NCBI RefSeq assembly: GCF_028282165.1
Contig: NZ_JANQIM010000005.1
Span: forward strand, 124,001 to 188,000
Source: Winogradskyella sp.
GTDB taxonomy: Bacteria; Bacteroidota; Bacteroidia; Flavobacteriales; Flavobacteriaceae
Direction of reading: 5' to 3'
Length of the DNA: 64,000 bases
The notes under the pieces are model-generated. The model ran no database searches, was not told the DNA's origin, and saw only the letters and a program-made list of their open reading frames with translations. Below, one piece after another: positions 13,425-32,680 of the stretch. Position 1 is the first letter of the stretch; every line of letters starts with the position of its first letter. Both the position numbers and the translations under genes were made by a program.

Positions 13425-13472
13425 AATGGTTAGTGAGGTATGCCAAAGTTGAGAAAAAAGTGTGTCTATTAG

Positions 13473-13562: not shown

Positions 13563-13580
13563 ACGTATTAGCTTTTAAGA

Positions 13581-14162: not shown

Positions 14163-14174
14163 TGTTTAGATAAT

Positions 14175-14858: not shown

Positions 14859-14872
14859 AAGTCTTTTTTTAA

Positions 14873-16549: not shown

Positions 16550-16741
16550 ATTTTCTGGTGGCTTAATTGAGTTTAATAGGAAAACCAATTTGCAATTTAA
16601 CTACACTAAAAATTCTTAACTTATCATATTACAGTATTATATCAATAGATATTCTATAATTATTGGTACTATTAAGATTAAGGAAGGGGAGGAAATGTTA
16701 TGACACATTATGTTTTAAATATAAGAAAAATATGTTTTCCA

Positions 16742-17227
16742 CTATTCTAAAGGCACAACTTTAATATCATAAATACATTGATACAAAGGACCATACGCCT
16801 TTTGAAAAAATAAATCCGTTTCACCTTTTAAAAAAATAAGATGTCTGGATCTTAATTTTGAGGCCATTAGAGTCCTGTATTCATAGTTTGTGGTACACAT
16901 TAAGCGATCAAGGTATTTGCTGGCTACATCTAAATAGTTCTCTCTAGTCATTCCTTCTTGAAGCTCCATTTTCATTGAATATTTAAAAATTACAACACTG
17001 TCTTGATAAGAAACTTCTTGTACTATTAGTTTATCTTTACCTTTAACAACTGGCAATGGGAACGAATATTTTTCGTTTACATGGTCAACATATAACTTTT
17101 CATTATCAAATTGTCCTGGGCTTTTTGTGTAGTCATAGTCATTGCATGAAACAACCCAAACCAAAATGCTTATTAAAAGAATAAGTTTTTTTAAGTCGCT
17201 AATTAATCCTTTTAGATTCAATTTCAT
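16742..17227 (-). CDS. Small lipoprotein
   Basis: The ATG at 17227 gives 161 residues, with a lipoprotein signal whose lipobox is VWVVSC. The mature domain is of mixed alpha/beta character (DKLIVQEVSYQDSVVIFKYS, RHLIFLKGETDLFF) and carries two later Cys. No family was recognised. Its 5' end overlaps the 3' end of the upstream membrane gene by 29 bp, implying co-translation with it. A gap of about 190 bp separates it from the metallopeptidase gene, and a separate promoter could lie there. Confidence 0.65.
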   Translation of the reverse strand: MKLNLKGLISDLKKLILLISILVWVVSCNDYDYTKSPGQFDNEKLYVDHVNEKYSFPLPVVKGKDKLIVQEVSYQDSVVIFKYSMKMELQEGMTRENYLDVASKYLDRLMCTTNYEYRTLMASKLRSRHLIFLKGETDLFFQKAYGPLYQCIYDIKVVPLE

Positions 17228-18080: not shown

Positions 18081-18330
18081 AAAAAAATAGTATTGCTATT
18101 CTTTTTCTAAGTTATAAAAAATCCCATTTTAAACAATGTGCATTTGTTATTGTTTTAAAATGTTCTAATTGATGAAAAAGAATAATGTGATTTCGTTCAG
18201 CACATATAAACGGAAAATATGAAAAAACAAGTGTAACAATCAGCTAATAATTATATCTTTTAAAAGTATTGGATATGGCGCAAAAGCGCTTACCGTTTTG
18301 TAACATCTTGTTAAACCTAATTCATAAAAG

Positions 18331-19359
18331 ATGCAGTTGCACATTCAAGTCATTTTCGCGTCTTTCGTCCTGCTGCTACTTATTTTTTTGCTAAGCAGGA
18401 AGGACAAACTCTTCCATAATGAAGTGTTTGCATTATTTGTTGGTGCATTGTTACTAAATAGCTGTTTTGAAATTTTAGCAACGCTCAACATTTTAACCGA
18501 CAGGGTCAATTTCAATCAATTTATAGGTTTCCTTTACGGCCCTTTGCTTCTTTGGTATATAAATTCGATTACCGCAAATTCTAGGAATAAGGTAACGCTT
18601 AGTTATTGGCATTTTGTGCCTGCCGCTATGGTTCTGGCCTTGGAACTATTGCACTATGCCACTGCGATTTTTATGCAATTCCAATTATGGAAGATTATTG
18701 GGATCCTTATAGTAATGCACAATATGGGATATCTTTTTTGGATTTTTAAAATCCTTAACAAGACCAAAACCGAAAAATCACTGCATTATTTAATGCCCTG
18801 GCTTAACTTATTGAGTAAAGGATTTGCAGTTATTCTTGGTATGTTCATCTTGGAACTTTCACTGGCCCTTATAGGTTATTTTAATTACATGTTCATTGTT
18901 CGTTCTATTAACCTAATGCTACTATTGGTCTATATCAATGGAATGGTGTATTTGGGGCTTTCAATCCCTTATATTTTCAATAAAAAAATGAAGTATGCCT
19001 ATTCCAGTCTAAGAGCGGACCAAAAAGAGAGACTGGTCAAAAAACTATCGCGCTATATGAAAGTACAGGAGCCTTTTTTATTCCCTGAGTTATCCCTTGA
19101 AATCCTGGCTTCTCATTTAGAGGTGAAACCTGACCAACTTTCTCTTGTGATTAACGAGCATTATCACAAGAATGTAAAGGACTTTATAAATTCATATCGT
19201 GTGGAAAAAGCCAAACAACTGCTTATTGATAATCCGGACTTGATTATAAAAGAAGTGATGTACGATTCCGGATTTCAGTCCAAATCTACCTTCAATTTGG
19301 TTTTCAAAAACGCAACGGGTATGTCGCCCTCTAAATTTCGTCGTGCCACTACTGTCTAG
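18331..19359 (+). CDS. Membrane-bound AraC-family transcriptional regulator
   Basis: The N-terminal 225 residues contain about seven TM helices, starting with VIFASFVLLLLIFLL. The C-terminal 110 residues are an AraC/XylS HTH domain: LEILASHLEVKPDQLSLVINEHYHKNVKDFINSYR is the first HTH and VMYDSGFQSKSTFNLVFKNATGMSPSKFR the second, with the family signature. This layout, a 7TM sensor joined to an AraC domain, is common in flavobacteria and suggests direct membrane sensing. The thioredoxin-domain gene follows 89 bp downstream and is a plausible target or partner. Confidence 0.88.
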   Translation: MQLHIQVIFASFVLLLLIFLLSRKDKLFHNEVFALFVGALLLNSCFEILATLNILTDRVNFNQFIGFLYGPLLLWYINSITANSRNKVTLSYWHFVPAAMVLALELLHYATAIFMQFQLWKIIGILIVMHNMGYLFWIFKILNKTKTEKSLHYLMPWLNLLSKGFAVILGMFILELSLALIGYFNYMFIVRSINLMLLLVYINGMVYLGLSIPYIFNKKMKYAYSSLRADQKERLVKKLSRYMKVQEPFLFPELSLEILASHLEVKPDQLSLVINEHYHKNVKDFINSYRVEKAKQLLIDNPDLIIKEVMYDSGFQSKSTFNLVFKNATGMSPSKFRRATTV

Positions 19360-19448
19360 AGATTAAAAAAGTCCAACAATACCTTTTTGGACTTCTGGCT
19401 AGAAACTTAATGGTATCATTGGGTTTTAAATCAAAAAACATAAGCAGA

Positions 19449-20543
19449 ATGAAATTTTATTTTTTTTTAAGTTGTCTGGTGGTATTGTGCCCCAAGATTA
19501 ATGCGAACGATAATTTAGTTGAGTTGAATAAGATCATCACAACTTTTAAATCAATGTCCTATGCAGGGTATCATATCAATTATTATGGTACGGGAGAAGT
19601 AAAAAATGCAACTAAGTTTGAAGGCGACGTAAGAATCAAATGGTCCGAGCAAGCGGATTTTGACTATGAAAATATCAGAATTCAGGGCTCATACCATGTT
19701 AAAGACATCTTGGGGAAGCGTAATGAATCAGCCAATATTTATCTAAATGGAGATGTCTTTTGGAACGTAGACCACACTTCCAAAGTGTATACTTATAGTC
19801 CGGATATTAGGTCTACTTTGCGAACCGCATTTAGAAAATCGCCCATTTTTCCTTTCACAGCGCTTACATTTATGAAAAAGAACCCATCAAGCGTAAAAAT
19901 ATCTACCGATGCAAATACCATACAGCTGACCTGTTCGACTAACGGGAAGTCTTTTAGGATTATTGCCAATAAAAGTGATCACAGCATTAGAAAAATTACT
20001 TGGAAAAAAGATAATTGGAAAAAAAATTCGGAAATCACAGCAGAACTCCATTTTAAACATCTGGAGGCAATCAAGGATTTTGGAAAACCTAATGTGAAAG
20101 ACTACGACAAAAAAATGTTGCCGACTAAAGGATACGAAGCACCAAAATGGCAATCCGTTTATCATTCTGGAGGACCTGTAAATCTCGATCAATTTAAAGG
20201 CGAAATTGTGGTTATGGATTTTTGGGCCACTTGGTGTTCACCATGCATAAGAGCCATACCATCCCTCCAAAAATTACATGCAACATATGGAGAAAAAGGC
20301 GTGAATATCTTGGGCTTGAATTATTTTGAAAAACGGAACCCCAAAAAGATTATGAAAAAATTGAAGGCGACTTATCCTACCATTCAAGCTGAAAGTATTG
20401 GCAAGGATTATGGAATTTTAAACTGGCCCACAACATTTGTGGTCGACAAAAAAGGAGTTATAAGGGAAATCATTGTAGGATATCATGGCGAGAAAACCGA
20501 TAAGCAGCTTAACGAACTCATTCAAAAGTTGATCACTGAGTAA
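19449..20543 (+). CDS. TlpA-like exported thioredoxin-fold protein
   Basis: The ATG at 19449 (364 residues) gives a proper signal peptide (ending INAN); a longer in-frame start at 19410 exists. The N-terminal 210 residues are a beta-rich domain with lipoprotein-carrier-like strands (VRIKWSEQADFDYENI, IYLNGDVFWNVD). Residues about 230-364 form a TlpA/ResA-type domain with DFWATWCSPC, active-site Cys263 and Cys266, and the cis-Pro loop LNWPTTFVVD. It should reduce or isomerise disulfides in the periplasm. The regulator gene upstream may control it. Confidence 0.88.
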   Translation: MKFYFFLSCLVVLCPKINANDNLVELNKIITTFKSMSYAGYHINYYGTGEVKNATKFEGDVRIKWSEQADFDYENIRIQGSYHVKDILGKRNESANIYLNGDVFWNVDHTSKVYTYSPDIRSTLRTAFRKSPIFPFTALTFMKKNPSSVKISTDANTIQLTCSTNGKSFRIIANKSDHSIRKITWKKDNWKKNSEITAELHFKHLEAIKDFGKPNVKDYDKKMLPTKGYEAPKWQSVYHSGGPVNLDQFKGEIVVMDFWATWCSPCIRAIPSLQKLHATYGEKGVNILGLNYFEKRNPKKIMKKLKATYPTIQAESIGKDYGILNWPTTFVVDKKGVIREIIVGYHGEKTDKQLNELIQKLITE

Positions 20544-20583
20544 TGTATTCCTTCTTCAGTGCTATTGCGCTTAGACATAGAAA

Positions 20584-20610
20584 TGTTCTGTAATGTACTA
20601 GTGTTATACC
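20584..20610 (-). repeat. Degenerate copy of the island dif-like motif (left edge)
   Basis: Read on the minus strand, TATAAC, then a 9-nt spacer, then TTACAGAACA follows the same pattern as the copy at 26035-26067 (TTACATAACG, spacer, TTATAGAACA). It lies 40 bp after the last core gene before the island. Confidence 0.5.
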
Positions 20611-20726
20611 TGTGCCTAATCTGAAAGGGTAGAGGCTTGGCGACAAAATCGAGCTTGCGAGATTGACTTCATCGAATCTTCGATTTCACGAATACCTATT
20701 TAATGAAATAAATATTTCAGTGAGTA

Positions 20727-20741
20727 AATGTGTGTGGAATG
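20727..20741 (+). repeat. Short copy of the GTGGAATG element
   Basis: AATGTGTGTGGAATG here is shared with the longer elements at 22150 and 26169. The distance from the dif-like motif to this element is 158 bp here and about 165 bp at 26035-26201, so the two form one repeated block with conserved ends and divergent interior. Confidence 0.6.
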
Positions 20742-20757
20742 ACCTATGTGTCCTTAC

Positions 20758-21948
20758 CTATATAGGAAAAGATAATGCGTTGTTGCAGTCTAATAGACCA
20801 AATCCAGATTTTTCATCACGTCCTGGCAAGTATATATCCTTACTTGAACTATGAAGTCTTTGTCTTATTTCTTGTGGTGTCCAATGCGGGAATGCTTGTT
20901 TTAGTAAAGCTATGGCTGCTGCAACATGTGGAGCCGCATAACTTGTCCCACTACCAATACCATAACCTCCACCTGGATTAGTTGATAAAACTAGATGTCC
21001 AGGAGCAACGATTTCTACACTTTGAGTTACTGGAAGGTTAATGGGACCATAAGAAGATTTTTCCCATATACTTTCATTTTCCTTAGTTGCACCAACGCTA
21101 ATATAACTTGGACATCTCGAAGGGTTAGTAACCCAATGATTAGCTTGATTTCCCGAATTACCTGCAATTCCCACAACCGAACAACCTGCATCAACAAGTT
21201 TTCTGGCCATTTCTTCCCAAGAACTCCAAAATGGGGCATTTGGATCATTTTCCCCACCTGTATTCCATAAACTAAAGGAAACAACATCTATTTTTTCCTT
21301 AATTGCCTCTTCCATTGCTGCAAAAACCCATTCTTCTTTGGCTCTACCGTTATTAGATATTCTATAAGCATAGATTTCAGAATCATGAGCAATTCCAATA
21401 ACCCCATTAGCATTATTTTTTGCGCCAATAATTCCCGCACAAAAAGTTCCGTGTGGATCAGTAGGGTTTTGCCAATCACTAATACCAGTTACAAAAGAAG
21501 AACCTCCAGTAATGTTTAAATCTGGGTGAGAAGTATCAACTCCTGAATCTAAAATTGCAATTTTTACACCTTTACCAGTGGCTTTATTCCAAGCCATATC
21601 AGCCTTTACTTGCTTTACATTCCATTTGATTTCACTAACAAAATCACTTTCCCGTATGGGTGAAATTTCATCTTGTGAATAAAGCATCAATTCTTCTACA
21701 GATGTAATTTCTTCTATTTCTGCATAATCTTTTAAAAGAAGGATTTCATTCTCATCTAATTTAGTATAACATGTTGAAATAGAATTATATATACGAACAT
21801 CATCGTCATTCTCTTTGTCTATTTCATTTGACGATATTAATGCCTCTCTGCCATCTTTAATATTTTGAATTGGTCTTTTGAATATTTTGGAAAAATCAGG
21901 TTTATCTAATCCCTTTTTTGATAATTTTATTTTGTAATCTTTCTTCAT
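20758..21948 (-). CDS. Intracellular-type S8 subtilisin-like peptidase
   Basis: The 396-residue protein has no signal peptide. Residues 1-110 are charged and may act as a propeptide or substrate-recognition domain. The catalytic domain has the full triad: Asp134 in AILDSGVD, His166 in DPHGTFCAG and Ser336 in GSGTSYAAPHVAA, with the oxyanion Asn in GIAGNSG. It is therefore probably active. It lies inside the accessory island, divergent from the HerA-like ATPase gene, with its stop 17 bp from a GTGGAATG repeat. Whether it belongs functionally to the HerA module or is an independent passenger cannot be told from this window. Confidence 0.85.
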   Translation of the reverse strand: MKKDYKIKLSKKGLDKPDFSKIFKRPIQNIKDGREALISSNEIDKENDDDVRIYNSISTCYTKLDENEILLLKDYAEIEEITSVEELMLYSQDEISPIRESDFVSEIKWNVKQVKADMAWNKATGKGVKIAILDSGVDTSHPDLNITGGSSFVTGISDWQNPTDPHGTFCAGIIGAKNNANGVIGIAHDSEIYAYRISNNGRAKEEWVFAAMEEAIKEKIDVVSFSLWNTGGENDPNAPFWSSWEEMARKLVDAGCSVVGIAGNSGNQANHWVTNPSRCPSYISVGATKENESIWEKSSYGPINLPVTQSVEIVAPGHLVLSTNPGGGYGIGSGTSYAAPHVAAAIALLKQAFPHWTPQEIRQRLHSSSKDIYLPGRDEKSGFGLLDCNNALSFPI

Positions 21949-22149
21949 TTTTTCTAAATTAAAAATACCTGCTCAGTTTCATTATAAAATTGAATTTTTA
22001 ATGAACAAGATAAAATACCCAATAAAGGGTAATTTTAATTTGTGAATAGTAAATAGGCATTACTTGTTTAATAAGTAAAAATAAGAAAATCAACCTGTTA
22101 TAACAAATCGCCGTTTTTTTGTTTAAGATTTTTTCTTTACCAGAATTAC

Positions 22150-22181
22150 AATAGGAGAGTAGTGGAATGTGCGTGGAATGG
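22150..22181 (+). repeat. 5' cassette element, HerA module copy
   Basis: ATAGGAGAGT followed by AGTGGAATGTGCGTGGAATGG. The KAP-module copy at 26171-26202 differs at only a few positions. Both lie 62-65 bp upstream of an identical TATATTTA box, so the element marks the 5' boundary of each module. Confidence 0.65.
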
Positions 22182-22242
22182 TTTTGTACATAACTTGTTG
22201 AAAACTACGGAAAACCGTAATCATATACTTGTTAAAATTTAG

Positions 22243-22250
22243 TATATTTA
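22243..22250 (+). promoter_or_regulatory. Candidate -7 box of the HerA module
   Basis: TATATTTA followed by AATTCTCCCTT is nearly the same as the sequence upstream of the KAP gene (TATATTTA, AACTCTGCCTT at 26267). It resembles the Bacteroidota -7 box, though no well-spaced TTG is present. Confidence 0.4.
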
Positions 22251-22343
22251 AATTCTCCCTTAACAATTAATTGCACTCGAACAGATTTAAACTTTTCGTA
22301 TTGTGATTTGATTTACTATACTTGAATCATTTTATATAGTTAA

Positions 22344-24572
22344 ATGAAAATTAACCTAACACAGCCTCAAAGAACTCTAGCAGCAATCATTTATTTATTA
22401 TTGCTAATATTATTATTCAGCTTAATTGACGGAAATTTTAATGAGTTGTTATTTAAATCTTCAGATGACAAAAGAGTTTGGTTTTTTTCTGGAGCTCTAT
22501 TAATAATTTTAGGAAAATACATTGCTGAACCGTTTTTTAGTAAACCCACTGATGCAATTGCAAATTCAGCAGCAGTAATAATTACATTATTAACGTTAAA
22601 TGATAAAGATAGATTTACATTATATAAAGTTATTTTAGTACTAGCAATACTAGTATTGATTTCTAGCTTAATCACAATTTTCTTAAAAAACTTTAATCAG
22701 GAAAATAAAACAATTCAAAGAATAAATGCAAGTGCTTATAAAATAGCGACAGATATTGGCAATTATAAAGTTCTATTTTCACTTGTTTACTTATCTACTG
22801 TCCATACATACTTTTTAAATATTTCTGAACCAGATATAATCTCTACAATTGTATTATTTGCATTCTGGTATATTTTAATCTCTTTTGATATAGTTGGCTG
22901 GTTTATAAAAACATTTATAAATCTAGTATTATCTACTAGTGATGATTTAGAAGAAGATTTAGGTTTAGCTATTGGTTGTGAAAATCCTTTATTATATAAA
23001 GTAGAAGTAGACTTTTTAAAAAATAAAAGTTCAAAGATTGATATAGGAGATTTGGTTACAGTAGAAAATGAGAAATTAAATAAATCTGTTGGAATCGTTA
23101 TTAATAAAAAACAATTACTCAATAAATTTTGGCTAGAGGTATATCTATTAGTGGATGAAAATGAAAATGTTATTAAGATGCCACAAGTGCATAGGTTAAA
23201 ATTTTTAAATGAAAAGAAAATATTACAGTTCAAGAATTCAGTAAAAAAAATTAAAACACTAGATTCTCTACCTGAATCAAATAGAAACCAAGTAGGAAAT
23301 AATAAACTTTATAGAAAACGAGAAAATTTTGTTGGTTATATTGAAAAAGGCTCAAACATAAATCAAATAATATTCTTGCATTTAGGAGAAAAAGAAATCA
23401 AAGAAGGTGCGATTGTTGTTTCCGAGATTTATGGAGAAGAAGTTTTATTTCAAGTAATTGATGGTCAGACAAGAGAAGAACCTTTGGAGTTTAAAGATGG
23501 TTATGGATATGAAGTTGCTTATGCTCGAAAAATAGGTAGTTATGATAATAAAAATAAAGAACTTAAAGTTAGGAATTGGTTGCCAAGAATATATACTCCA
23601 GTCTTTGTTTTTGAAAGTGAAGATTTAAGTGAGGAAAGGTTGCTCGAAATTTCCAATAATTCGATTGGTAGACTTCCAAAAACTACCTTTGAAATACCTA
23701 TTAATGACTATAATTCTTTGGTTACTCATAATACAGCAATTCTAGGTATTCTCGGAATTGGAAAATCTCGCCTTACATTCGAAATTCTTAAAAAACTAAT
23801 TAATAAAACAGGCGTCAAAATAATTTGTATTGATGTTACTAAACAATATCAAACTGAATTATTAGATTATTTTGAAGAAGATAAACTTATGATTGATTTA
23901 TCTGAAGAAGAACTTAAAGATTTAAAAGCTAAAAATGCTGATGGTAATTTTGATAATCCAACAAGTTGGGGAAATGAAAGTATATATAGAGAAAAATTAG
24001 ATAAGTGTATTTCAGATTTTTACAATAGTGAAAGTAGAGTTTTGATATTAAATCCTGATTGGCACAATGTTTCAGTAGCCGGAAGTAAATTTAAAATAAC
24101 GCATAAAGAAGATTTAACAATTGCCCAGAAAACAAGAATTATTAGCGAAAGAGCTTTTATCTACTCTTATAATCAAGGAGAAACTACTGACGCTCGATGC
24201 ATGATAGTATTTGAAGAAGCTCATTCTCTAATCCCAGAATGGAATTCTGTTGCCAATGATGGAGATAAAACAGCAGTAAATGGTACTGCAAAAGTTATTC
24301 TGCAAGGAAGAAAATTTGGATTAGGTTCGCTTGTTATAACGCAACGTACAGCTAATATAAGTAAGAGTATATTGAATCAATGTAATACAATTTTTGCTCT
24401 GAGAGTATTTGATGATACAGGGAAACAATTTCTTGAAAATTACATAGGTTCAGATTATTCAAACATTTTGCCAACTCTAGAGGAGAGACATGCAATTGCA
24501 GTTGGAAAGGCATTAAAATTAAAGCAACCAGTAATCATAGAGTTAAATGATATGAAAAGAGTTACAAATTAA
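22344..24572 (+). CDS. Membrane-anchored HerA-like (DUF87) ATPase
   Basis: The 742-residue protein has an N-terminal membrane region with about five TM helices (residues 10-205). A beta-rich middle region (about 225-420) looks like HAS-barrel-type folds, and the HerA/FtsK-type P-loop ATPase is at the C-terminus. The Walker A motif is GILGIGKSRL (about 467-476). Walker B is MIVFEEAHSLIP (about 620), and the sensor/arginine segment is QGRKFGLGSLVITQRTANISK. HerA ATPases act as hexameric DNA translocases with nucleases (NurA, DUF4297, Sir2) in repair or defence; a membrane-fixed form suggests action on DNA at entry or on membrane complexes. The partner gene starts 11 bp downstream. Confidence 0.85.
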   Translation: MKINLTQPQRTLAAIIYLLLLILLFSLIDGNFNELLFKSSDDKRVWFFSGALLIILGKYIAEPFFSKPTDAIANSAAVIITLLTLNDKDRFTLYKVILVLAILVLISSLITIFLKNFNQENKTIQRINASAYKIATDIGNYKVLFSLVYLSTVHTYFLNISEPDIISTIVLFAFWYILISFDIVGWFIKTFINLVLSTSDDLEEDLGLAIGCENPLLYKVEVDFLKNKSSKIDIGDLVTVENEKLNKSVGIVINKKQLLNKFWLEVYLLVDENENVIKMPQVHRLKFLNEKKILQFKNSVKKIKTLDSLPESNRNQVGNNKLYRKRENFVGYIEKGSNINQIIFLHLGEKEIKEGAIVVSEIYGEEVLFQVIDGQTREEPLEFKDGYGYEVAYARKIGSYDNKNKELKVRNWLPRIYTPVFVFESEDLSEERLLEISNNSIGRLPKTTFEIPINDYNSLVTHNTAILGILGIGKSRLTFEILKKLINKTGVKIICIDVTKQYQTELLDYFEEDKLMIDLSEEELKDLKAKNADGNFDNPTSWGNESIYREKLDKCISDFYNSESRVLILNPDWHNVSVAGSKFKITHKEDLTIAQKTRIISERAFIYSYNQGETTDARCMIVFEEAHSLIPEWNSVANDGDKTAVNGTAKVILQGRKFGLGSLVITQRTANISKSILNQCNTIFALRVFDDTGKQFLENYIGSDYSNILPTLEERHAIAVGKALKLKQPVIIELNDMKRVTN

Positions 24573-24583
24573 AACGAAGATAA

Positions 24584-25255
24584 ATGGCGCTAAAAAAATT
24601 ACCAGTAAAGAAATTAGTGGAATTTCGAAGATTATCGAAGAGAAGACAACTCACATTTACTAATAGACTCAAGTCACCTAAAGAATCAAGTTCATCAGGA
24701 GGCGATTATTGGGTAAGAAGTATTAGCGCAATTAGTAATGCTTTTAGAGAAAACGACAACTCCTATATAAATAAAAAACTTGAATAAACTAAAGAACTTT
24801 TTGATATAACTCAAAGAAGTCAAACAAAAACGATGTATAAGAGAAACATTGACATATTAGATAAGTATAAAAATTTTGACTTTGAGGTTTGGAGGCCTAC
24901 ATCAGAACTAAAATTCCTAAAAAAGCCTAATTCATTGTTGGAGATGAACGGATTGCCAGTTCAAATTCGTCCAAATCATGTTTTCTATTATGGAGCAAAG
25001 GATAAAAAAAGTTTAGGTGGTATTTGGTTCATTACCTGGTTAGAAGGTTTTAAAAGGAGTGATTTAGGCATTTATTCTGAAGCATTATACAGATACCTAA
25101 CATCCTATTTTTCTGAAGAGTACGAAATAAACCCAGCTTCGTGTATTACTGTCGATGTTTCAAGTACTAATTCTGTAGGTTATAATGAGATAATTAATGG
25201 GGAAATTCCCTCATTATTAGATTCAACTTTATCGGAACTGAAAAAATTCATTTAG
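24584..25255 (+). pseudogene. HerA partner gene interrupted by in-frame TAA
   Basis: An ATG at 24584 opens 67 codons ending in TAA at 24785-24787. The same frame continues without another stop, through TKELFDITQRSQTKT and an ATG at 24833, to 25255. The second part (140 residues from 24833) has coherent protein character with LEMNGLPVQIRPNHVFYYG and IWFITWLEGFKRSDLG. Together they make about 222 residues, which I believe is one gene. From memory, full-length proteins with both halves (KLVEFRRLS, GGDYWVRS, LEMNGLP motifs) follow HerA-like genes elsewhere. The gene is either a nonsense pseudogene, two polypeptides, or a readthrough product. No nuclease motif is visible. Confidence 0.65.
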
Positions 25256-25265
25256 AAGTCAGTTG

Positions 25266-25292
25266 GCCTCATAAAATTTTGGTGAAAACAAT
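25266..25292 (+). repeat. 3' cassette element, HerA module copy
   Basis: GCCTCATA, ATTTTGG and AAAACAAT occur in this order with the same spacing as at 31933-31959 (23 of 27 positions identical). Each copy lies directly downstream of the last gene of a module. Confidence 0.6.
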
Positions 25293-25320
25293 CTACCTTC
25301 GTTGCACTTCGGCAGACAAG

Positions 25321-25337
25321 TAGGAGAGTGGAATGAC
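25321..25337 (+). repeat. Short GTGGAATGACC element
   Basis: TAGGAGAGTGGAATGACC overlaps in sequence with the 5' cassette elements at 22150 and 26171, and its GTGGAATGACC end matches the left-edge copy at 20733. It looks like a truncated element left between modules. Confidence 0.45.
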
Positions 25338-25362
25338 CATACTTTGTTCTGCAAGAGAAATC

Positions 25363-25569
25363 CTAAGACGATTTTCCTTTTCTGTGACCAGTCGGGTAGG
25401 GCTTTATCTTCTTTTTAAAATCCTCAATCTCATTTTTTAGTTTTTTGTTGGCGTTTGCGATGAGTTCATTTTGGTGCTTCATGATGCTAATGAGATCGTG
25501 CATAGCGTTTAGGTTTTCTAATTGGGCGTATACGATTTGTTCTAATTCTGCTTTTGTGTATCTAAACAT
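25363..25569 (-). CDS. Small coiled-coil protein
   Basis: The 68-residue protein is predicted helical throughout (ELEQIVYAQLENLNAMHDLI, NANKKLKNEIEDFKKKI), with a basic C-terminal tail (GHRKGKSS). It is divergent from the XRE-type regulator at 25716, 146 bp away, and the two probably form a pair in which the regulator controls this gene. It resembles small flavobacterial proteins found beside such regulators, but no function is known. Confidence 0.55.
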   Translation of the reverse strand: MFRYTKAELEQIVYAQLENLNAMHDLISIMKHQNELIANANKKLKNEIEDFKKKIKPYPTGHRKGKSS

Positions 25570-25715
25570 TTCTATTATGTGTAATTTTTTAATACAAAAG
25601 TTTCAATTTTCTATCCAAAAGTATACAAAATAAATCCAAATCCAAAACATTTGGTTCAAAATTTGATACAACTGTATACATAATCTATATTTATGTTTTT
25701 AAAAATAAAATACTT

Positions 25716-25937
25716 ATGACCAGATTAGGTCTATATTTGGCTAAGAAATCCATTAACAAGGCAGAAGTCTCTCGTAAGACTGGGATTAGTAAATCAAGAA
25801 TGAGCCAGTTAAGTTCTAATGAGTCAACAAAACTTCGTGCAGATGAATTGTATCTAATTGCTTTAGCCATAGATGTCGATCCATGTGAAATCTTCCAGGA
25901 AGTTTGTGGAGACCTCAAATTGCGTGAGGAAGCATAA
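25716..25937 (+). CDS. Small XRE-family HTH regulator
   Basis: The 73-residue protein is essentially one Cro/C1-type helix-turn-helix: LGLYLAKKSINKAEVSRKTGISKSRMSQLS, followed by the capping helices ADELYLIALAIDVDPCEIFQEV. It has no effector domain. It lies divergent from the coiled-coil gene at 25569 and between the HerA and KAP modules. An exact 11-bp dif-arm copy starts 6 bp after its stop. Confidence 0.8.
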   Translation: MTRLGLYLAKKSINKAEVSRKTGISKSRMSQLSSNESTKLRADELYLIALAIDVDPCEIFQEVCGDLKLREEA

Positions 25938-25942
25938 TTTCT

Positions 25943-25953
25943 ATTTTACATAA
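25943..25953 (+). repeat. Exact dif-arm copy
   Basis: ATTTTACATAA, identical to the reverse complement of the right arm of the dif-like site at 32653-32680. The opposite arm is not recognisable. Confidence 0.5.
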
Positions 25954-26034
25954 TACTAATAATGCAAATCGTCATGGCACGATTTACAAACCGATTCTAG
26001 CCACTCAACCTGTGGTGCTATTATTCTAAATATA

Positions 26035-26067
26035 CAATTGTTCTATAATGTACTTGCGTTATGTAAC
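26035..26067 (-). repeat. Degenerate dif-like motif between modules
   Basis: On the minus strand this reads GTTACATAACG, a spacer, then TTATAGAACAATTG. It shares TTACATAA and TTATAGnACAA with the copies at 32475 and 32653, but the spacer is about 10 bp, so it is unlikely to be a working Xer site. Confidence 0.5.
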
Positions 26068-26168
26068 TTAGCTTTGGTAAAAAGCTAAGGTTCAATGCAT
26101 AGTTTCTTTATTTTTTTCTTCTCAAATGTTTCTCTACTCAGTTAATGGAACACTTTTTTTACGAAGTG

Positions 26169-26202
26169 AAGATAGGAGCGCAGTGGAATGTGTGTGGAAT
26201 GG
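26169..26202 (+). repeat. 5' cassette element, KAP module copy
   Basis: AGATAGGAGCG followed by CAGTGGAATGTGTGTGGAATGG. It nearly matches the element upstream of the HerA gene (22150-22181) and lies at the same distance from the promoter-like box. Confidence 0.65.
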
Positions 26203-26266
26203 ATTAGAAGTTAATAACTTTCAAACATTTACGGTTTTCCCTCAAATTAGCTCATAGTAATTTCAT

Positions 26267-26274
26267 TATATTTA
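26267..26274 (+). promoter_or_regulatory. Candidate -7 box of the KAP operon
   Basis: TATATTTA followed by AACTCTGCCTT, the same box and context as upstream of the HerA gene. The ATG is 74 bp downstream. Confidence 0.4.
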
Positions 26275-26347
26275 AACTCTGCCTTGTACTAAAAAATCAG
26301 CTATTAATCTGGTAAATAAATCAGCTTAGAATCCTTTTTAATTTAGT

Positions 26348-29300
26348 ATGGAATTAAAAGATAAGTACAAAAATTGTTTGAAAAACATGAAAAATAAAAA
26401 CAAAACTAAGGTTGAGAATTTTCAATTTATTTCTGAAAGACCTAAAGACGGTGAGTTACTATTTGGACATAAGGAAATAGTCTCTACTCTTCAAAAGATA
26501 GTTTTAAAAAGCCCTCAGTCATTTACAATAGGGTTATTTGGGAACTGGGGTTCTGGTAAAAGTTCAATTGCTGAGACCTTACAAAGTAACCTTAAAAGCA
26601 ACGATATACCTTTGATAATATTTGATGTATGGAAACATGAAGGTGATGCGCTTAGGCGAACTTTTTTAAAAGATTTAGACAAAAAATTATCTAGTGAATA
26701 TTTTGGTAAAAAATATTATAAAGAGAATTTTAAGTTAGAAAAAAACTTAGATAGTGATATTAATATTGAAGGCAAAAGTGGATACGAATTCAAAGGAAAA
26801 AAGTTTTTTAATCATGTACTAGTAATATTCTTATTCATTTTAATTCCTTTAATATTAGTTGCTCTTGGACTTTGGGGAATTGGAAAAACTTTATCAATAG
26901 AATCTTTTTCATTTAAAAAAATATTAGAAAAGCTTTTGTTAGTTATAGGTGGGCTAACAATACCTATTACATTTTGGTTTAAATATTTTAACTCATTTAT
27001 AATTGAGAAAAAAACAACATATAGAAAGTCCAGAATTCAAGATCCAATTGAATTTGAAAACTCTTTTCATGAGATACTAAATAACTTAACAAAAAAAGTT
27101 AAAAAAATTGTAGTTGTTTTTGATAATTTAGATAGAGTAAGTGGAGAAAAAGCAGTTGAGATAATATCAACGATTAAAACATTTCTCGAACCAATTGATA
27201 GAAAGAACAAAAAGGACATTGTATTTATTATTCCTTGTGATTCTACAGCAATAAAACGACATTTAAATTATGCGTTTGATATAGATGATGAACAATATGC
27301 GGATGAATTCTTAAGGAAATTTTTTAATACAATAATTTGGATTCCAGAATTCTACAATAATGAATTACAAAAACTTGCTCATGATAAGCTTAAAGAAACA
27401 CAGATTAAAGATTTCGAAAATCTAGATCTTGCTGCTCTAATTGTACTTGTGTTCGACCAAAACCCAAGGCAAATTATACAGTTTATTAATATTCTACTAG
27501 CAAATTATCTTTTGTTAAAGGAGAGAAAAATTCCTGGCTTTTCTTTGAAAGAAAATATTACTCAGTTAGCAAAATATCTGTTATTAATTCAAAGATTTCC
27601 TCTAATAATGGAATTTTATAAAAAGACTAATACGTATAGATTAAAAGACGATATCAGAAAAAGTATTAGTCAACATGATGTTGAATACATCCACGAACAG
27701 TATGAAAGTTTTATAGATTTTATTGATTCAACAAGCCCTTGGGAAATTGAGTCGTTAGATTTGTTTTTTAAGTTTCGATTAACTGAATTTGAAAGAAAAT
27801 TTGAAAATAGCACAAAACTTATTAGACTATTAGAGTCAAATAGAATTTCATCAATTTTAATTGATAATTCGGATAAGAATATTGATGACAAAAAATACTT
27901 AGATAATTTAGACTTCAAATCTAAAACTGTTGATTTAAGTAATATTGCGAAACAAAAAATCAAGACTAATATTTATCCTTTAACATCAGTTAATTTTATT
28001 AACGGTTTAATGGAATTAACTAAGCACTATGAAATAAAATTAAATGATGATGCTTACAGAGAGTTTTTTAAGAAATTAAAAAAAGACCCTTTTAGTAATT
28101 ATATCCATAGATTGAATATTCAAAATATATTAGTAGAATGCCTTGATAAAATTGAAAATTCAAGACTAAAAGAAAGTTTTATGAAAATTCTTTTAGATCA
28201 ATGGATTATTGATTTTGTAAACTTTTCCAATACGCAACGAAATCAACAGAAAACAACTAATCAAGAGAGTTTTATTGAAAACTTTTTTGATCTAATCTTA
28301 GATGAAGAAAAAGTGTTCCTGTTCGAAGAATCAAAATTAAACTCTATCAATATTGCTATATCAAATCACCATAATAATAATCTAGAGAAAATCAAACGAA
28401 TTAGTAATAGCTCAATATTAAGAAAGAAGTTGTTAACATCCGGATTATTGAATCAAATCATTAGCAATTTAACTAGGCGGATATCTAAAGATTTTAAAAT
28501 AGATTATTTTAGTAATTACATTGATATCTTAAATACTTTTAATAAGAGTTTGTTTACTCAAGATATTTATACATCGAGTATTTCGTTTGTATATGCCGCA
28601 ACCAATAAATTGAGAACTGACTATAATGCGTTATTAGATCAGGAGGATGATGTGGTTCTCAAACAATATCAAATTACAATCAAAAGTTTCAACAAATTCT
28701 ATAACAGAGTAATTGAAAATATTGTTATAAATAAAAACAATAAAGGTCATTTTGATAACATATATAATTTGTCAAAGTCCATTTTTATTGAAGGAAATTA
28801 TAAAAATGCTAGTTTATTTTTAAGCTATTATTATTTGTTTGAAAATCATTCAGAAAAATCCATTGATAAAAATGACGTAAAAAACACAATATCAAAATTT
28901 TTGAATAGCAATATTGAGGCAGTTCAGATTAAAAGAGATTTAACCTCTTCTATTGGTGTGAAAAAGCTATTTGAAAACTCTAATTATTTAAATATCGTTT
29001 TTAATAGAGCCAAAACTTCTCAAGATTTCATTGAACAATTTTATAGTTATTTTGATTCAACAAAGCAGCAGGAATTAATAGAATTTTGGATTCCATTAAA
29101 TGGCAGTAAGGATATTAACGTATACGAGGAAATATTAAAAAACTTAAAGTATAACATACCAGATAGCGATAAAGCAGCCAATAAAATGTTAGCTAATGCT
29201 GGTATAACAAATTTACTACTTGAAAAGGAAAAAATTTATGATATAGTTTTTAATCTAGACCTTTCTAAAGAATTTGACTATACGATTTACTCTAATCAAA

Positions 29301-29920
29301 TTATAAACTTATTATGTTCAACAAATTTAGAAAATCATAAACTTGGTTTTAGGCAGATAGACAAGCACGGTAAATTCGTGGTCAAATTTGATCTTAAGAA
29401 AAAATGTGAAGACACTCTTAAACGAAGATTTTTACTCAATGTGAATCAATATAGCACTCATATAAAGAACATTTTAGAATATAAATTTGGAATAAGTAAA
29501 AAAGAGATAAATGATTTTATTAAAGAAAATCAAAAAGCAAAAAACTCTATTATTGATTATCTAATCAGAAGTCAAAGCTTAGATTTTTTAATCATTCTGA
29601 AAGGGTTTTTATATAAATCAAACTATGTTGATCTATCAAAAGTATTATTAACGAGTATAGCACTAAAAATTAAATCTAATAAAAATCAATTGAACGTTTT
29701 TAGAAATATAATTGATGAATTATGCTCGGCCAATCTAAAGGGTGTTGAACGAGAATTTCTAGACTTAATGGTTAGTTATTCATCCAATCTAAGCTATAAT
29801 CAATTTGACGAATTAATTATTAAAATAGAGGAGAGGCTTTATAAAAATAGAAATAAGTTGCCTGATGATAGTTTGAGAAAAGCATGGCTAAATTCGGATA
29901 GATTTGGCAAACCTTCTTAA
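26348..29920 (+). CDS. KAP-family membrane-associated P-loop NTPase
   Basis: The 1190-residue protein has Walker A GNWGSGKSS (about residues 65-73) and Walker B KIVVVFDNLDRVSGE (about 253-267). Two or three TM helices (about 157-215, VIFLFILIPLILVALGLWGIG) are inserted between them, which is the defining KAP arrangement and holds the NTPase at the inner face of the membrane. A sensor-like segment (FIIPCDSTAIKRHL) and DQNPRQIIQFIN follow. The remaining 750 residues are helical, Asn/Lys/Ile-rich and of unknown fold. KAP NTPases occur in several phage-defence systems. It is the first of four closely spaced genes in an island module. Confidence 0.85.
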   Translation: MELKDKYKNCLKNMKNKNKTKVENFQFISERPKDGELLFGHKEIVSTLQKIVLKSPQSFTIGLFGNWGSGKSSIAETLQSNLKSNDIPLIIFDVWKHEGDALRRTFLKDLDKKLSSEYFGKKYYKENFKLEKNLDSDINIEGKSGYEFKGKKFFNHVLVIFLFILIPLILVALGLWGIGKTLSIESFSFKKILEKLLLVIGGLTIPITFWFKYFNSFIIEKKTTYRKSRIQDPIEFENSFHEILNNLTKKVKKIVVVFDNLDRVSGEKAVEIISTIKTFLEPIDRKNKKDIVFIIPCDSTAIKRHLNYAFDIDDEQYADEFLRKFFNTIIWIPEFYNNELQKLAHDKLKETQIKDFENLDLAALIVLVFDQNPRQIIQFINILLANYLLLKERKIPGFSLKENITQLAKYLLLIQRFPLIMEFYKKTNTYRLKDDIRKSISQHDVEYIHEQYESFIDFIDSTSPWEIESLDLFFKFRLTEFERKFENSTKLIRLLESNRISSILIDNSDKNIDDKKYLDNLDFKSKTVDLSNIAKQKIKTNIYPLTSVNFINGLMELTKHYEIKLNDDAYREFFKKLKKDPFSNYIHRLNIQNILVECLDKIENSRLKESFMKILLDQWIIDFVNFSNTQRNQQKTTNQESFIENFFDLILDEEKVFLFEESKLNSINIAISNHHNNNLEKIKRISNSSILRKKLLTSGLLNQIISNLTRRISKDFKIDYFSNYIDILNTFNKSLFTQDIYTSSISFVYAATNKLRTDYNALLDQEDDVVLKQYQITIKSFNKFYNRVIENIVINKNNKGHFDNIYNLSKSIFIEGNYKNASLFLSYYYLFENHSEKSIDKNDVKNTISKFLNSNIEAVQIKRDLTSSIGVKKLFENSNYLNIVFNRAKTSQDFIEQFYSYFDSTKQQELIEFWIPLNGSKDINVYEEILKNLKYNIPDSDKAANKMLANAGITNLLLEKEKIYDIVFNLDLSKEFDYTIYSNQIINLLCSTNLENHKLGFRQIDKHGKFVVKFDLKKKCEDTLKRRFLLNVNQYSTHIKNILEYKFGISKKEINDFIKENQKAKNSIIDYLIRSQSLDFLIILKGFLYKSNYVDLSKVLLTSIALKIKSNKNQLNVFRNIIDELCSANLKGVEREFLDLMVSYSSNLSYNQFDELIIKIEERLYKNRNKLPDDSLRKAWLNSDRFGKPS

Positions 29921-29943
29921 TTTTTTTGGCCAATAAAATTAAT

Positions 29944-30366
29944 ATGAATAAGCAAAACATAATAACTCCTTTTGTTAAATCACAATTAGGAAATACTGGC
30001 ATGAATTTAATTCCAAAAGAGAGTGGAAGGGAAGGAGTAGATTTTTTAATTGGAACTAATGACTTCTTTTTACAATCGATAGATTTAGATACTATTGATC
30101 GTAGTGCAAAAATTGTAAAAAAGGATTTAGGTAAATTAAGAGATAACTTATTCATTATTCTCGTTTTAATTATTGAAGAAGAACCAAGAATGGTTTATAT
30201 AATTCCATCAAAGGATTTATCGCAATCAGAAAGCGAAATCTTTATAAGTAACGATGTCAGTTTAATGCCAAGTTTATCTAATTGGGAGATTAGAATTTCT
30301 GTTCATACAATACCGAAATTAGTAAAGTACTCTTTAGAAAGTATGATTGATAAACTAAAAACTTAG
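29944..30366 (+). CDS. Small protein in KAP operon, possible degenerate nuclease fold
   Basis: The ATG at 29944 gives 140 residues; a TTG at 29926 is in frame but less likely. The pattern EGVDFLIGTNDFFLQSIDLD resembles the core of DUF4365/PD-(D/E)xK-like domains (acidic residue, beta hairpin, then QxK), but the Lys is absent (QSI). If the fold is right, it is probably inactive as a nuclease. The remainder alternates strands and helices (LFIILVLIIEEEPRMVYIIP). It lies 23 bp after the KAP gene and 54 bp before the next. Confidence 0.6.
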   Translation: MNKQNIITPFVKSQLGNTGMNLIPKESGREGVDFLIGTNDFFLQSIDLDTIDRSAKIVKKDLGKLRDNLFIILVLIIEEEPRMVYIIPSKDLSQSESEIFISNDVSLMPSLSNWEIRISVHTIPKLVKYSLESMIDKLKT

Positions 30367-30420
30367 TTTAATACTATTTGATAAAAACAATAACAATTAT
30401 TTTAAATAAATTTATAAAAA

Positions 30421-30930
30421 ATGAATTTTAATTTTGATATAACAATTGATACAATTGTATCAATAATTGGTTTTGCATTTGCAATTATTGGTATTTGGTT
30501 CACTTATAAACAAATGAAAGAAACATCTAGAGTTAACCGTGTTAAGTTTATTTATGATTTAACTAATGATTTATTTGGAGATGATAAAATACGAGAGTTT
30601 TTTTATAAAATTGACTATGAAAAATTCACATTTAATCTAGAAGAGATTGATAAATTTAAAGACAGCAGTGAAGAAAGATGGTTAGACGCAATTCTATATA
30701 GATATGATGTAATCGGTAGAATGGTTAAAACTAAAACTATACCTCTTAATGATATCGATTATATACTTTTTGAAATTATTCAAGTTTATAAAAATAAAGA
30801 TGTAAAAAACTATCTTAAATGGCTAGATGGAGAGTTTGAAGACCATGGAAAACTTGGTGATAATAAAAGAAAGAGAGCTCATGATGATTTCAGGTGGCTG
30901 GCGGAGCAAATTGAAAAAAATAGGCGCTAA
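30421..30930 (+). CDS. Membrane-anchored helical protein (DUF4760-like)
   Basis: The 169-residue protein has one N-terminal TM helix (about residues 9-30, IVSIIGFAFAIIGIWFTY). A cytosolic helical domain follows, with RVKFIYDLTNDLF, EERWLDAILYRYDVIGRMV and the basic C-terminal segment KRKRAHDDFRWLAEQIEK. The pattern resembles the DUF4760-type proteins often seen in mobile or defence loci, by recollection only. It starts 54 bp after the preceding gene and ends 8 bp before the GNAT-like gene, so it belongs to the KAP operon. Confidence 0.6.
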   Translation: MNFNFDITIDTIVSIIGFAFAIIGIWFTYKQMKETSRVNRVKFIYDLTNDLFGDDKIREFFYKIDYEKFTFNLEEIDKFKDSSEERWLDAILYRYDVIGRMVKTKTIPLNDIDYILFEIIQVYKNKDVKNYLKWLDGEFEDHGKLGDNKRKRAHDDFRWLAEQIEKNRR

Positions 30931-30938
30931 ATTTAGTC

Positions 30939-31868
30939 ATGAAAAATGATTCTCATTACATATATGAAATAAATTCACACTCTCAAATTTTACCCTACTT
31001 AAAACAATTTATGAATCAATTAGATTCATATTTATGTTCTCCATTTTATTTTTTGCTAACAGGGCGTAAAGGTCTTAAGGTGATTAATTGTAATGATAGT
31101 GCTATAATTTTCTCTGATCATCCAAACTTAGAAGACGAAACTATTATTTTTCCTCCTTCATCGAAAAAAGAGGTGAGAATTTTAGACTTTCTTTTTTCTT
31201 CAAAAAGATATCTTTTGAAAAAAAACTTAAGAATAATTAGATGTAACAATATGAGTTATGGACTAATTAGTCAAAGTATTATGTCGAAATTTAATTTACA
31301 AAAAAAGAATGAATATTTACTTGATTGGAAATACCCATCTGTAACTATATCTGTTAGAAGTGTATTAAAAATGTCTGGAAAAAACTATAAAGATCTTAGA
31401 TATAATATAAATAAAGTCGATTCAAGCAAAGTTGTATTTGAAGAGTATAAACATCAGCTTCATTATGAAGATTCATTAAAACTTATAAATAAATGGTGTA
31501 AACGAAATACCTCTGTTTTATTTAATGAATCTAATCTATCTGCTCCATATTTATATCTTTTGAATCAAATAAAAATGGTTGAAGGTCTATTTGGATATGT
31601 AATGTATTATAAAGATAATTTTGTTGCTTTTAATATACTTGATAAACCATATAACAATATGTATGAGTTTATCTCATTAGCTTTTTTAGCAGACGTTGAT
31701 TTTAAAGGAATACCCAGCTACATGAGATATAAAGTATGTGAATTTGCTAAGTCTCAATTAATAAATACTATTAATATAGGTGGGGCTGAGACTTTAGGTT
31801 TATATAGATTTAAAAAGAAGCTGGTTCCAAGTAGGGAGCTAGAGCTATTTTCTATTACTAATCAATAA
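30939..31868 (+). CDS. GNAT-fold (DUF2156-like) putative acyltransferase
   Basis: The 309-residue protein resembles the C-terminal catalytic domain of phosphatidylglycerol lysyltransferases (DUF2156) and FemAB/GNAT enzymes. The first half includes the SVLKMSGKNYKDLRYNINK pattern and an EEYKHQLHYEDSLKLINKWC stretch. The second half has an acceptor-like core (LFGYVMYYKDNFVAFNIL) and the closing motif NIGGAETLGLYRFKKKLVP. Such enzymes transfer acyl or aminoacyl groups to lipids, peptides or small molecules. No TM segment is present. It is the last gene of the KAP operon and the most likely enzymatic effector of the module. Confidence 0.6.
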   Translation: MKNDSHYIYEINSHSQILPYLKQFMNQLDSYLCSPFYFLLTGRKGLKVINCNDSAIIFSDHPNLEDETIIFPPSSKKEVRILDFLFSSKRYLLKKNLRIIRCNNMSYGLISQSIMSKFNLQKKNEYLLDWKYPSVTISVRSVLKMSGKNYKDLRYNINKVDSSKVVFEEYKHQLHYEDSLKLINKWCKRNTSVLFNESNLSAPYLYLLNQIKMVEGLFGYVMYYKDNFVAFNILDKPYNNMYEFISLAFLADVDFKGIPSYMRYKVCEFAKSQLINTINIGGAETLGLYRFKKKLVPSRELELFSITNQ

Positions 31869-31932
31869 AGGTGAAAAACCTATTCTTTCGAACATATGAT
31901 TAGTTTTTCCCAGATGGCGCATTGGCAAAACA

Positions 31933-31959
31933 GCCTCATATTATTTTGGCTAAAACAAT
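31933..31959 (+). repeat. 3' cassette element, KAP module copy
   Basis: GCCTCATA, ATTTTGG and AAAACAAT with the same spacing as at 25266-25292. It lies 64 bp after the last gene of the KAP operon. Confidence 0.6.
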
Positions 31960-32191
31960 AGGCGAAGTGAGCGTCTATATTTTAGGGGTTTAGTAATACA
32001 TATTCTTAAAAGTTCCAATTATACAAGGGATTTCAAACCAATCTTAACCAGTTACAATGTTTCCTAAAATATAGCGAATAAGCCGTTTATTGTTTCCAAA
32101 ATTATATGCAGCCTTGATTTTTTTGTTTCTTTTTTTATCAAGAAAAAAAGATTATAATTAAAGAAATAGAAGTTCAAATCATGAAACTCTA

Positions 32192-32202
32192 TTTTACATA
32201 AT
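32192..32202 (+). repeat. Exact dif-arm copy
   Basis: ATTTTACATAA, followed by AT-rich sequence in which no second arm is recognisable. Confidence 0.5.
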
Positions 32203-32474
32203 ATTAGATGTTACAATTAAAAAACGTGAATAGGAGTTCTACATAGAACAAGTGCATAGAAATATCTCTTCGAGTAATTTTATGCTCTTGTGGTAAGCTC
32301 ACGAGAATTGCGTAGAAAAAAATATAAAGCACAATTATTCAAATACGGCAAAATTTCAATAACATCTAAAAGCTAGCTTTTATAATGCGCTGGCAAGCGG
32401 CTGGAAATTGAGTTATAAATAAATTGCAATAAGCAATTTGCATTTATAAAAACAATATGGCGTTGGCAGCGGAT

Positions 32475-32503
32475 ATTTTACATAACGGCAAATTATAGGA
32501 CAA
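32475..32503 (+). repeat. dif-like copy with 7-bp centre
   Basis: Arm ATTTTACATAA, 7-bp centre (CGGCAAA), arm TTATAGGACAA. It is inverted relative to the site at 32653. The centre is one base longer than a standard dif site, so it may be a decayed junction. Confidence 0.6.
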
Positions 32504-32587
32504 ATGAAAAAACTCTGCGAAGCAAACCGATTTTTAGTTTAATGCCCAAGTTCCAATTGTTCTTTTGAAAACGAATGTCTCTGGGAT

Positions 32588-32614
32588 ATTTTACATAATG
32601 TCATTATAGGCTAC
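32588..32614 (+). repeat. dif-like copy with 5-bp centre
   Basis: Arm ATTTTACATAA, 5-bp centre (TGTCA), then TTATAGGCTAC. It has the same orientation as the 32475 copy. Its second arm keeps TTATAG but diverges at the end. Confidence 0.55.
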
Positions 32615-32652
32615 GAATGTGATACTTTGACTTAAACAACAAATATGAGTAT

Positions 32653-32680
32653 TTGTACTATAATTTACATTATGTAAAAT
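32653..32680 (+). other. Candidate Xer recombination (dif-like) site
   Basis: The 28-bp site has 11-6-11 architecture: left arm TTGTACTATAA, centre TTTACA, right arm TTATGTAAAAT. The right arm matches the E. coli XerD arm (TTATGTTAAAT) and the B. subtilis equivalent (TTATGTAAACT) at 10 of 11 positions each. The left arm keeps the ATAA inner end. It sits between an accessory island and the core genome, and gene orientation changes near it. It could be the chromosomal dif or an integrated-element copy. Confidence 0.6.

Follow-up and report, generated by a model that had tools for sequence, protein, structure and literature searches.

How a row of genes comes to be stacked, in one orientation, on one side of the chromosomal dimer-resolution site dif is the question raised by a locus of Winogradskyella sp. 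(GTDB lineage Bacteria; Bacteroidota; Bacteroidia; Flavobacteriales; Flavobacteriaceae). The window analyzed computationally here is a stretch of 64,000 nucleotides (NCBI RefSeq assembly GCF_028282165.1, contig NZ_JANQIM010000005.1, positions 124,001 to 188,000 of the forward strand), and positions are counted from its first letter. An earlier interpretation made from the letters of the window and its open reading frames (ORFs), referred to below as the sequence-only reading, had proposed that an island at 20584-32680 was built by repeated integration at dif-like sites marked by an 11-mer. We find a row of cassettes, designated E1, E2 and E3, ending precisely at dif, which were probably inserted one by one at its XerC side by the host recombinases XerC/XerD; most likely they arrived as circular single strands that XerC would have inserted with one polarity.

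The site to which the whole argument refers is the following:

32653..32680, + strand: chromosomal dif, with XerC arm 32653-32663, centre TTTACA and XerD arm 32670-32680.

This 28-mer is the sole match at up to three mismatches in the 4.0-Mb genome (a looser consensus adds one site with two mismatches, on contig C48). Along the 315-kb contig the cumulative GC skew reaches its maximum at 155-175 kb, and dif lies at 156653. Searching 60 genomes, that of the window among them, with TTGTNCTATAANNNNNNTTATGTAAAAT at up to three mismatches, a level at which chance matches are present (reversed controls gave 0 to 4 per strand and genome), revealed a copy with 0-2 mismatches in 34 of 37 genus genomes, four of which have a second copy; a shorter dif core is present in 239 of 299 genomes of the family Flavobacteriaceae. 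Being unique, found as the same site in relatives and located at the turning point of the GC skew, the segment 32653-32680 is the chromosomal dif.

Left of dif the XerC arm recurs, joined to another sequence:

26038..26065, + strand: intact left junction of E3, with XerC arm 26038-26048 and left-end core TGTACTTGCGTTATGTA at 26049-26065.

This junction is the only match in the genome at up to three mismatches. Whole genomes were searched for it with CTATAATGTACTWGCGTTATGTA, allowing up to three mismatches in the genus and two in the family, with reversed patterns as controls. The genus yielded 34 junctions in 25 of 68 genomes and the family had the junction in 11 of 299 genomes; both reversed controls gave none. 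All 28 genus junctions sharing a contig with dif (19 genomes) lie on its XerC side, on the same strand and 3.1-36 kb off, and the same side and strand hold for 11 of 11 family junctions, 4.2-16.6 kb from dif (the dif of G179 has two mismatches). Combined, 38 of 38 junctions on a dif contig, from 29 Flavobacteriaceae genomes, are found on the XerC side, on the same strand and within 36 kb; the total is 38 and not 39 because the genome of the window belongs to both sets. No junction of this type was found on the XerD side of dif. Named carriers among 42 loci are Winogradskyella, Aquimarina, Sinomicrobium, Hyunsoonleella, Gelidibacter, Gaetbulibacter, Galbibacter, Psychroserpens, Altibacter, Aurantibacter and a few metagenome-assembled genomes (MAGs), one of which, assigned to Saprospiraceae, may reflect a binning error.

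These counts bear on one rival explanation, under which AT-rich DNA produced the motif pattern by chance. The 11-mer of the sequence-only reading would allow it: at one mismatch 11 copies were found in the window against 8.85 expected (28 of 100 shuffles reach 11), and genome-wide there are 11 exact copies, the same number as for the reversed pattern. The 38 polar junctions with reversed controls at zero, and a left end conserved in other genera, leave chance a negligible probability. The exact copies are also clustered rather than equally dense elsewhere, five of the 11 falling within 25943-32680 (the chance of at least five is about 6e-12, for a stretch picked post hoc), and relatives did not present modules devoid of flanking motifs.

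The 11-mer itself, however, is not the border. Its exact copies had been listed at 25943, 32192, 32475, 32588 and, inverted, 32670, which is accurate except that the second begins at 32191; the inverted one is the XerD arm of dif, and the other four sit inside right ends of elements, either 65 to 462 bp ahead of dif or directly ahead of the E3 junction, so that exact 11-mers were rejected as module borders. The two degenerate sites do exist: the one placed at 20584 has its XerC arm at 20583-20593 and its core at 20594-20607, and the one placed at 26035 has its XerC arm at 26038-26048 and its core at 26049-26065. Of the motifs said to fall between modules and at the island edges, those at 20583, 26038 and dif keep that role, and the true junctions of the window are 20583, about 22020, 26038 and dif. 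The left-end tail is present at 20727, 22166 and 26187, hence the three elements E1, E2 and E3; the decayed left end with the repeat 22166-22180 had escaped the sequence-only reading.

The ends meeting at such junctions were compared in the dif surroundings of 33 relatives from the genus, generally with 15 kb taken from the XerC side and 5 kb from the XerD side. Pieces (BLASTN, at least 60 bp) of the right end found in the window, type A, adjoin dif in 12 of the 33 relatives, and a second type, B, recovered with a query from locus L059, does so in ten, L059 included; copies of both types also occur further left of dif. Of 11 such interior right ends inspected, nine are followed by the dif XerC arm, TGTACTWGCG, TTATGTA (one base off in L074) and a small hairpin, and the remaining two (L049 and L053) have the same junction with the core broken by a short insertion. 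Where an element borders dif itself, the XerC arm comes directly after the right end, and the remainder of dif continues from there. Since the right end precedes the XerC arm both at interior junctions and at dif, entry would have occurred between the XerC arm and the centre, and the shared layout implies that dif was remade on the right of each element. The left end, about 155 bp and non-coding, terminates in most copies in AATGTGTGTGGAATGG (as aligned in 52 copies from several genera, 50 of them with a junction at up to three mismatches and the other two the decayed copies of the window), and the junction centre measures 10 bp against 6 in dif. In G368 a left-end tail without a strict junction adjoins dif, with a 9-nt centre.

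Two further observations concern these ends. The insertions in L049 (near -11719 relative to dif) and L053 (near -7950) lie exactly in the junction centre, and one of them is a palindrome. Beside dif in L059, L060 and L078, type B right ends form head-to-tail repeats with a unit length of about 110 bp; the pattern would suit a loss of cargo or the insertion of empty units.

The form of the ends also bears on the idea that a transposase acting in trans places the elements beside the XerC site. ISAjo2-type insertion sequences are indeed found 5 bp away from the dif XerC site and in a single orientation, a polarity like that seen here (PMC10132070). Unlike the present elements, they possess 24-26 bp terminal inverted repeats, a 5-bp duplication and a transposase (PMC10132070). 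Here the ends are not mirror images, the repeated piece is the XerC arm, complemented by an inverted site within the right end, and no transposase family is among the cargo families listed. The three features that define the IS1202/ISAjo2 type (terminal inverted repeats, 5-bp duplication, transposase) were not found in the ends and the cargo families listed, and we consider this route very unlikely.

Comparison of the flanks disclosed a hard edge at dif. G035, the only one of the 33 relatives whose right flank matches that of the window, matches from dif base 1 rightwards over 2354 nt (85.8%), and to the left of dif the sole match until window 12009 is an 83-bp piece of left end; the distance from this point to dif is 44.4 kb in G035 and 20.6 kb in the window. 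For G030 and G003 the match likewise runs from dif base 1 rightwards, and to the left the first common block is reached after 54 kb and 22 kb. Among six relatives, compared pairwise over 80-kb contexts with matches of at least 500 bp, right flanks were shared and left intervals unequal. A terminus that is merely prone to rearrangement, where genes gather by homologous or illegitimate recombination between passive border repeats, would suit arrays differing in nearly every gene, and repeats such as the tandem type B units might recombine. It fits poorly with right flanks starting precisely at dif base 1, with base-identical junctions of a single polarity and with an XerD side lacking them, and we regard it as highly improbable.

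The region differing from G035 reaches further left than the extent of 20584-32680 given in the sequence-only reading, down to window 12009, and thus includes:

12010..20582, no strand: DNA absent beside dif in relative G035, without a left-end tail.

This segment, in which no left-end tail was found, might be composed of still older elements of the island. Left of the island there is another variable spot, about 4.8 kb (6555-11400) missing in G035 between two shared blocks.

The manner of insertion is suggested by the right ends. Those of type A carry, about 130-190 bp ahead of the XerC arm, an inverted dif-like site whose complement is the XerC arm followed by that element's own left end, sequences that adjoin only in a circle. 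In E3 these parts are:

31932..32652, + strand: right end of E3, type A, of which about 700 bp are kept in relatives; exact 11-mers at 32191, 32475 and 32588.
32477..32503, - strand: inverted dif-like site in the E3 right end, complementary to the XerC arm plus the E3 left end.
32588..32611, - strand: second inverted dif-like site in the E3 right end, 65 bp ahead of dif and kept in several relatives.

A fixed rule scored an inverted site at 39 of the 95 boundaries, where shuffled sequences led to an expectation of 5.6, and in G372 one inverted site stands directly beside the junction, a compact version of the arrangement. Elements were counted as complete from one junction (up to three mismatches) to the next junction or dif over at most 17 kb, which gave 21 of 1.0-11.7 kb, the longer of which may hide a missed decayed border. 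The ends of these elements covary: left end TACTTGCG goes with CAA in the right end in nine elements and TACTAGCG with CTA in three, so that 12 of 13 scorable elements (eight of the 21 being unscorable) have paired base changes (Fisher p 0.014, kinship ignored). When joined ends are folded as single-stranded DNA (ssDNA), the XerC and XerD arms of 13 of the 21 top strands are predicted mostly to pair with one inverted site around a bulged centre; the 13, E3 among them, comprise 11 type A elements and the compact L104 and L110.

A course of events can be proposed from these features. In the joined single strand the inverted dif-like site of the right end would pair with the XerC arm and left end, giving a hairpin predicted to present XerC- and XerD-binding arms around a bulged centre. 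XerC would cleave the hairpin as well as dif where the XerC arm meets the centre, exchanging one strand, and replication would complete the insertion. The resulting double-stranded left junction, with its 10-bp centre, would presumably no longer be a good substrate; insertion would for this reason be polar, dif would keep working and reversal would be hard. The single strands might conceivably be carried or helped by an ssDNA phage, a conjugative element or natural transformation.

The same polarity and the regenerated dif would be explained equally well if Xer inserted ordinary double-stranded circles, the way of VGJphi and LME-1, which insert as double-stranded DNA (PMC5357621, PMC9765430); each circle would then have one dif-like attP with a divergent centre, and inverted sites would be accessory or leftovers. 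The 56 of 95 boundaries without a scorable inverted site favour such a route and equally count against the folded single strand. The 10-bp junction centre, compared with 6 bp in dif, and inverted sites that occur at seven times the expected frequency and agree with the left end of the same element, speak for the hairpin, and we think the double-stranded route rather unlikely.

Several other points weigh against insertion of single-stranded cassettes at dif by XerC. The observations are of sequence, with no recombination, circle or excision among them. No element-free site was found in the six-relative comparison, so the empty site with both flanks that the sequence-only reading had expected did not emerge from the relatives compared. 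The junction in its strict form is rare, as the counts of 11 in 299 family and 25 in 68 genus genomes illustrate, and six of the 34 genus junctions (G012, G373, G378, G009, G382, G016) are on dif-less contigs, where placement is not judgeable; in the drafts G012, G009, G382 and G016 the dif contig stops within about 1.2 kb on the XerC side. On contig C5 of G010 a left end does not adjoin dif. In the window E1 and E2 are decayed, and only E3 has intact ends. The covariation is broken by L062, and its p value of 0.014 is optimistic because the elements are related. Fold energies are only modestly under those of doublet shuffles (window z -2.2 for the top and -0.9 for the bottom strand, 60 shuffles per sequence).

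The stretch on G010 contig C5 (L146, G010:C5:229000-244000) has a left end with a 9-nt centre, and visual inspection of the ORFs there suggests MnmE and a phage-type integrase. Integrative elements of this kind may be vehicles for cassettes. Left and right ends had no match in phage and plasmid records, and the junction and the left-end tail gave none in IMG/VR, where the dif core matched two contigs.

The elements of the window, from dif leftwards, and their genes are as follows:

26049..32652, + strand: element E3, the newest, adjoining dif, 6.6 kb.
26049..26203, + strand: conserved non-coding left end of E3, with the core, a small inverted repeat (26066-26091) and the tail motif (26187-26201).
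26348..29920, + strand: KAP P-loop NTPase of E3, 1190 aa (Pfam PF07693, E 1.1e-24).
29926..30366, + strand: ORF of E3, function unassigned, 140 aa from ATG 29944.
30421..30930, + strand: ORF of E3, function unassigned, 169 aa.
30939..31868, + strand: 309-aa protein of E3, weak LPG_synthase_C match under the Pfam cut-off.
22020..26037, + strand: element E2, left border estimated, junction decayed; left-end tail 22166-22180.
22344-24572, 24833-25255 and 25716-25937: E2 genes for a HerA-like ATPase, a 140-aa ORF and a helix-turn-helix (HTH) protein, respectively (Pfam, PADLOC).
20583..22019, + strand: element E1, with an estimated right border, a decayed left junction (20583-20607) and the tail motif at 20727-20741.
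20758-21948, - strand: S8 subtilase of E1.

The KAP NTPase is weakly similar to the PADLOC models QatA (E 3e-13) and PifA (E 3e-11), and the ORF at 29926-30366 shares DNA of 88.7% identity over 362 nt with an element of Aurantibacter (L097). The right end of E2 carries the exact 11-mer at 25943; the HTH protein encoded there resembles, by eye, one just behind an element left end in L147. GC content is 0.35 in E1, 0.29 in E2 and 0.27 in E3, so that E2 and E3 are AT-richer than the flanks (0.33-0.36). An Rfam scan of 20000-33000 returned one match only, at chance level (E 0.99).

In the complete elements 61 of 73 cargo ORFs (at least 80 aa) are oriented towards dif. Defence-like families recognized by Pfam and PADLOC include DNA methylases, a phospholipase D (PLD)-type restriction enzyme, McrBC, RloB, NB-ARC, NACHT and nSTAND ATPases, MqsR/MqsA and ParE/ParD, together with cyclase plus patatin pairs resembling CBASS (cyclic oligonucleotide-based antiphage signalling system) in L097 and L100. 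These two are copies of one cassette in two genera: L097 of Aurantibacter and L100 of W. jejuensis share 3055 nt at 82%, so cargo is common to different genera. The presence of alpha/beta hydrolases, two-component pairs, beta-lactamase-family proteins and phosphoenolpyruvate mutase means that the cargo is not solely defence. No integrase, transposase, relaxase, Rep or capsid was found among the Pfam matches listed for the 73 ORFs, a listing outside which the nine lowest-ranked families fall (7 of 32 and 2 of 27 in two sets); PHROG gave two terminase-small-subunit and two lysin-type tail family matches among the best 25 of 77 families. The absence of integrase, transposase and relaxase noted in the sequence-only reading was borne out by Pfam on the window ORFs, and the contig has no PF00589 gene; the six tyrosine recombinase genes of the genome all lie off the dif contig. 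A protein of up to 264 aa, function unassigned, occurs left of dif in nine of 34 loci (L055, L057, L058, L059, L060, L061, L063, L067, L077).

Serial capture at dif by host Xer without an own integrase, as envisaged in the sequence-only reading, is thus supported by the comparative data, with a different anatomy: the modules are not surrounded by complete sites as in pdif modules, and the closest logic is that of the folded attP of CTXphi, an integrative mobile element exploiting Xer (IMEX). The CTXphi attP consists of inverted sites with 12-bp and 5-7 bp centres and is active only when folded, XerC alone catalyses, and excision has reportedly not been detected (PMC4246890). CTXphi-type IMEX and the present elements share dif as target, the absence of an own recombinase, a dif that stays usable and inverted sites with a long and a short centre that pair only in single strands (here by prediction), the centres being 10 and 7 here (PMC4246890). 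XerC dependence was shown there (PMC4246890) and is presumed here, and CTXphi is a phage genome whereas the present elements are 1-12 kb cassettes with many cargo types, forming arrays in another phylum; replication or virion genes of such a phage are found neither in the window elements nor among the cargo families listed. Several relatives (L080 6554-6645, L081 6362-6455, G278:C1:1595364-1595461) have, at a distance from dif, two inverted dif-like sites spaced by about 45 bp, which look like a folded attP whose centres are 6 bp.

PhiCjT23-like ssDNA prophages of Flavobacterium have dif motifs (PMC9719478), and the Bacteroidetes microvirus (BMV) proviruses BMV 4-6 have an extra dif-like site near one end (PMC3091885). 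They have single-stranded genomes and resemble our elements in family or phylum, in terminal dif-like sites and in a proposed reliance on XerC/XerD (PMC9719478, PMC3091885), and differ in being 6-8 kb viruses with replication and capsid genes where the elements here have cargo genes; by analogy, such viruses are possible helpers for the cassettes. Acinetobacter pdif/dif modules are likewise small gene modules between Xer sites in multi-module islands, but their sites are complete, 28 bp long and alternate in orientation, and most lie on plasmids or elsewhere than at the main dif (PMC12907356, PMC6449649). Here the arrays are one-sided, adjoin the main dif and have asymmetric ends, a 10-bp centre and one orientation. 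The islands LME-1 and GGI (gonococcal genetic island) also rely on host Xer at dif (PMC9765430, PMC5357621); GGI is 57 kb long, the 22-bp att of LME-1 is identical to a segment of dif (PMC9765430), and neither is presented in these papers as a cassette array with a common left end. The comparison literature also includes PMC3025954. The closest logic is that of CTXphi-type IMEX, and the closest relatives by host are the PhiCjT23-like prophages and BMV.

In integrons cassettes stack at one site and in one direction. The arrays described here do likewise, and a folded single strand is their predicted substrate too; they differ from integrons in that dif would be the capture site and host XerC the enzyme, and no IntI, attI or attC was identified (IntI- and attC-specific models were not run). 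Known parts thus appear newly combined into an array seemingly with dif as capture site and host XerC as integrase, an IMEX with integron-like behaviour. Non-viral dif cassettes in Flavobacteriaceae are not described in the titles and abstract openings listed, and no paper combining XerCD, dif and Flavobacteriaceae was found, in a search covering a minority of subscription papers and no preprints; their novelty is accordingly provisional.

A bolder reading, to which we give an even chance, is that dif acts as the attI of an integron-like capture system, with host XerC as its integrase and the joined cassette ends as a split, folded, single-stranded attC, through which marine Flavobacteriaceae would accumulate and swap genes, anti-phage genes among them, at the replication terminus. 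The link between Xer recombination and integrons would become directly testable, and the insertion mode of CTXphi would be extended from phages to non-viral cassettes and to another phylum. The XerC arm followed by TGTACTWGCGTTATGTA beside dif offers a simple sequence handle for new defence genes in Flavobacteriaceae. If the reading is true, the essential dimer-resolution site would double in these bacteria as a general platform for gene capture, to which the element supplies only its ends.

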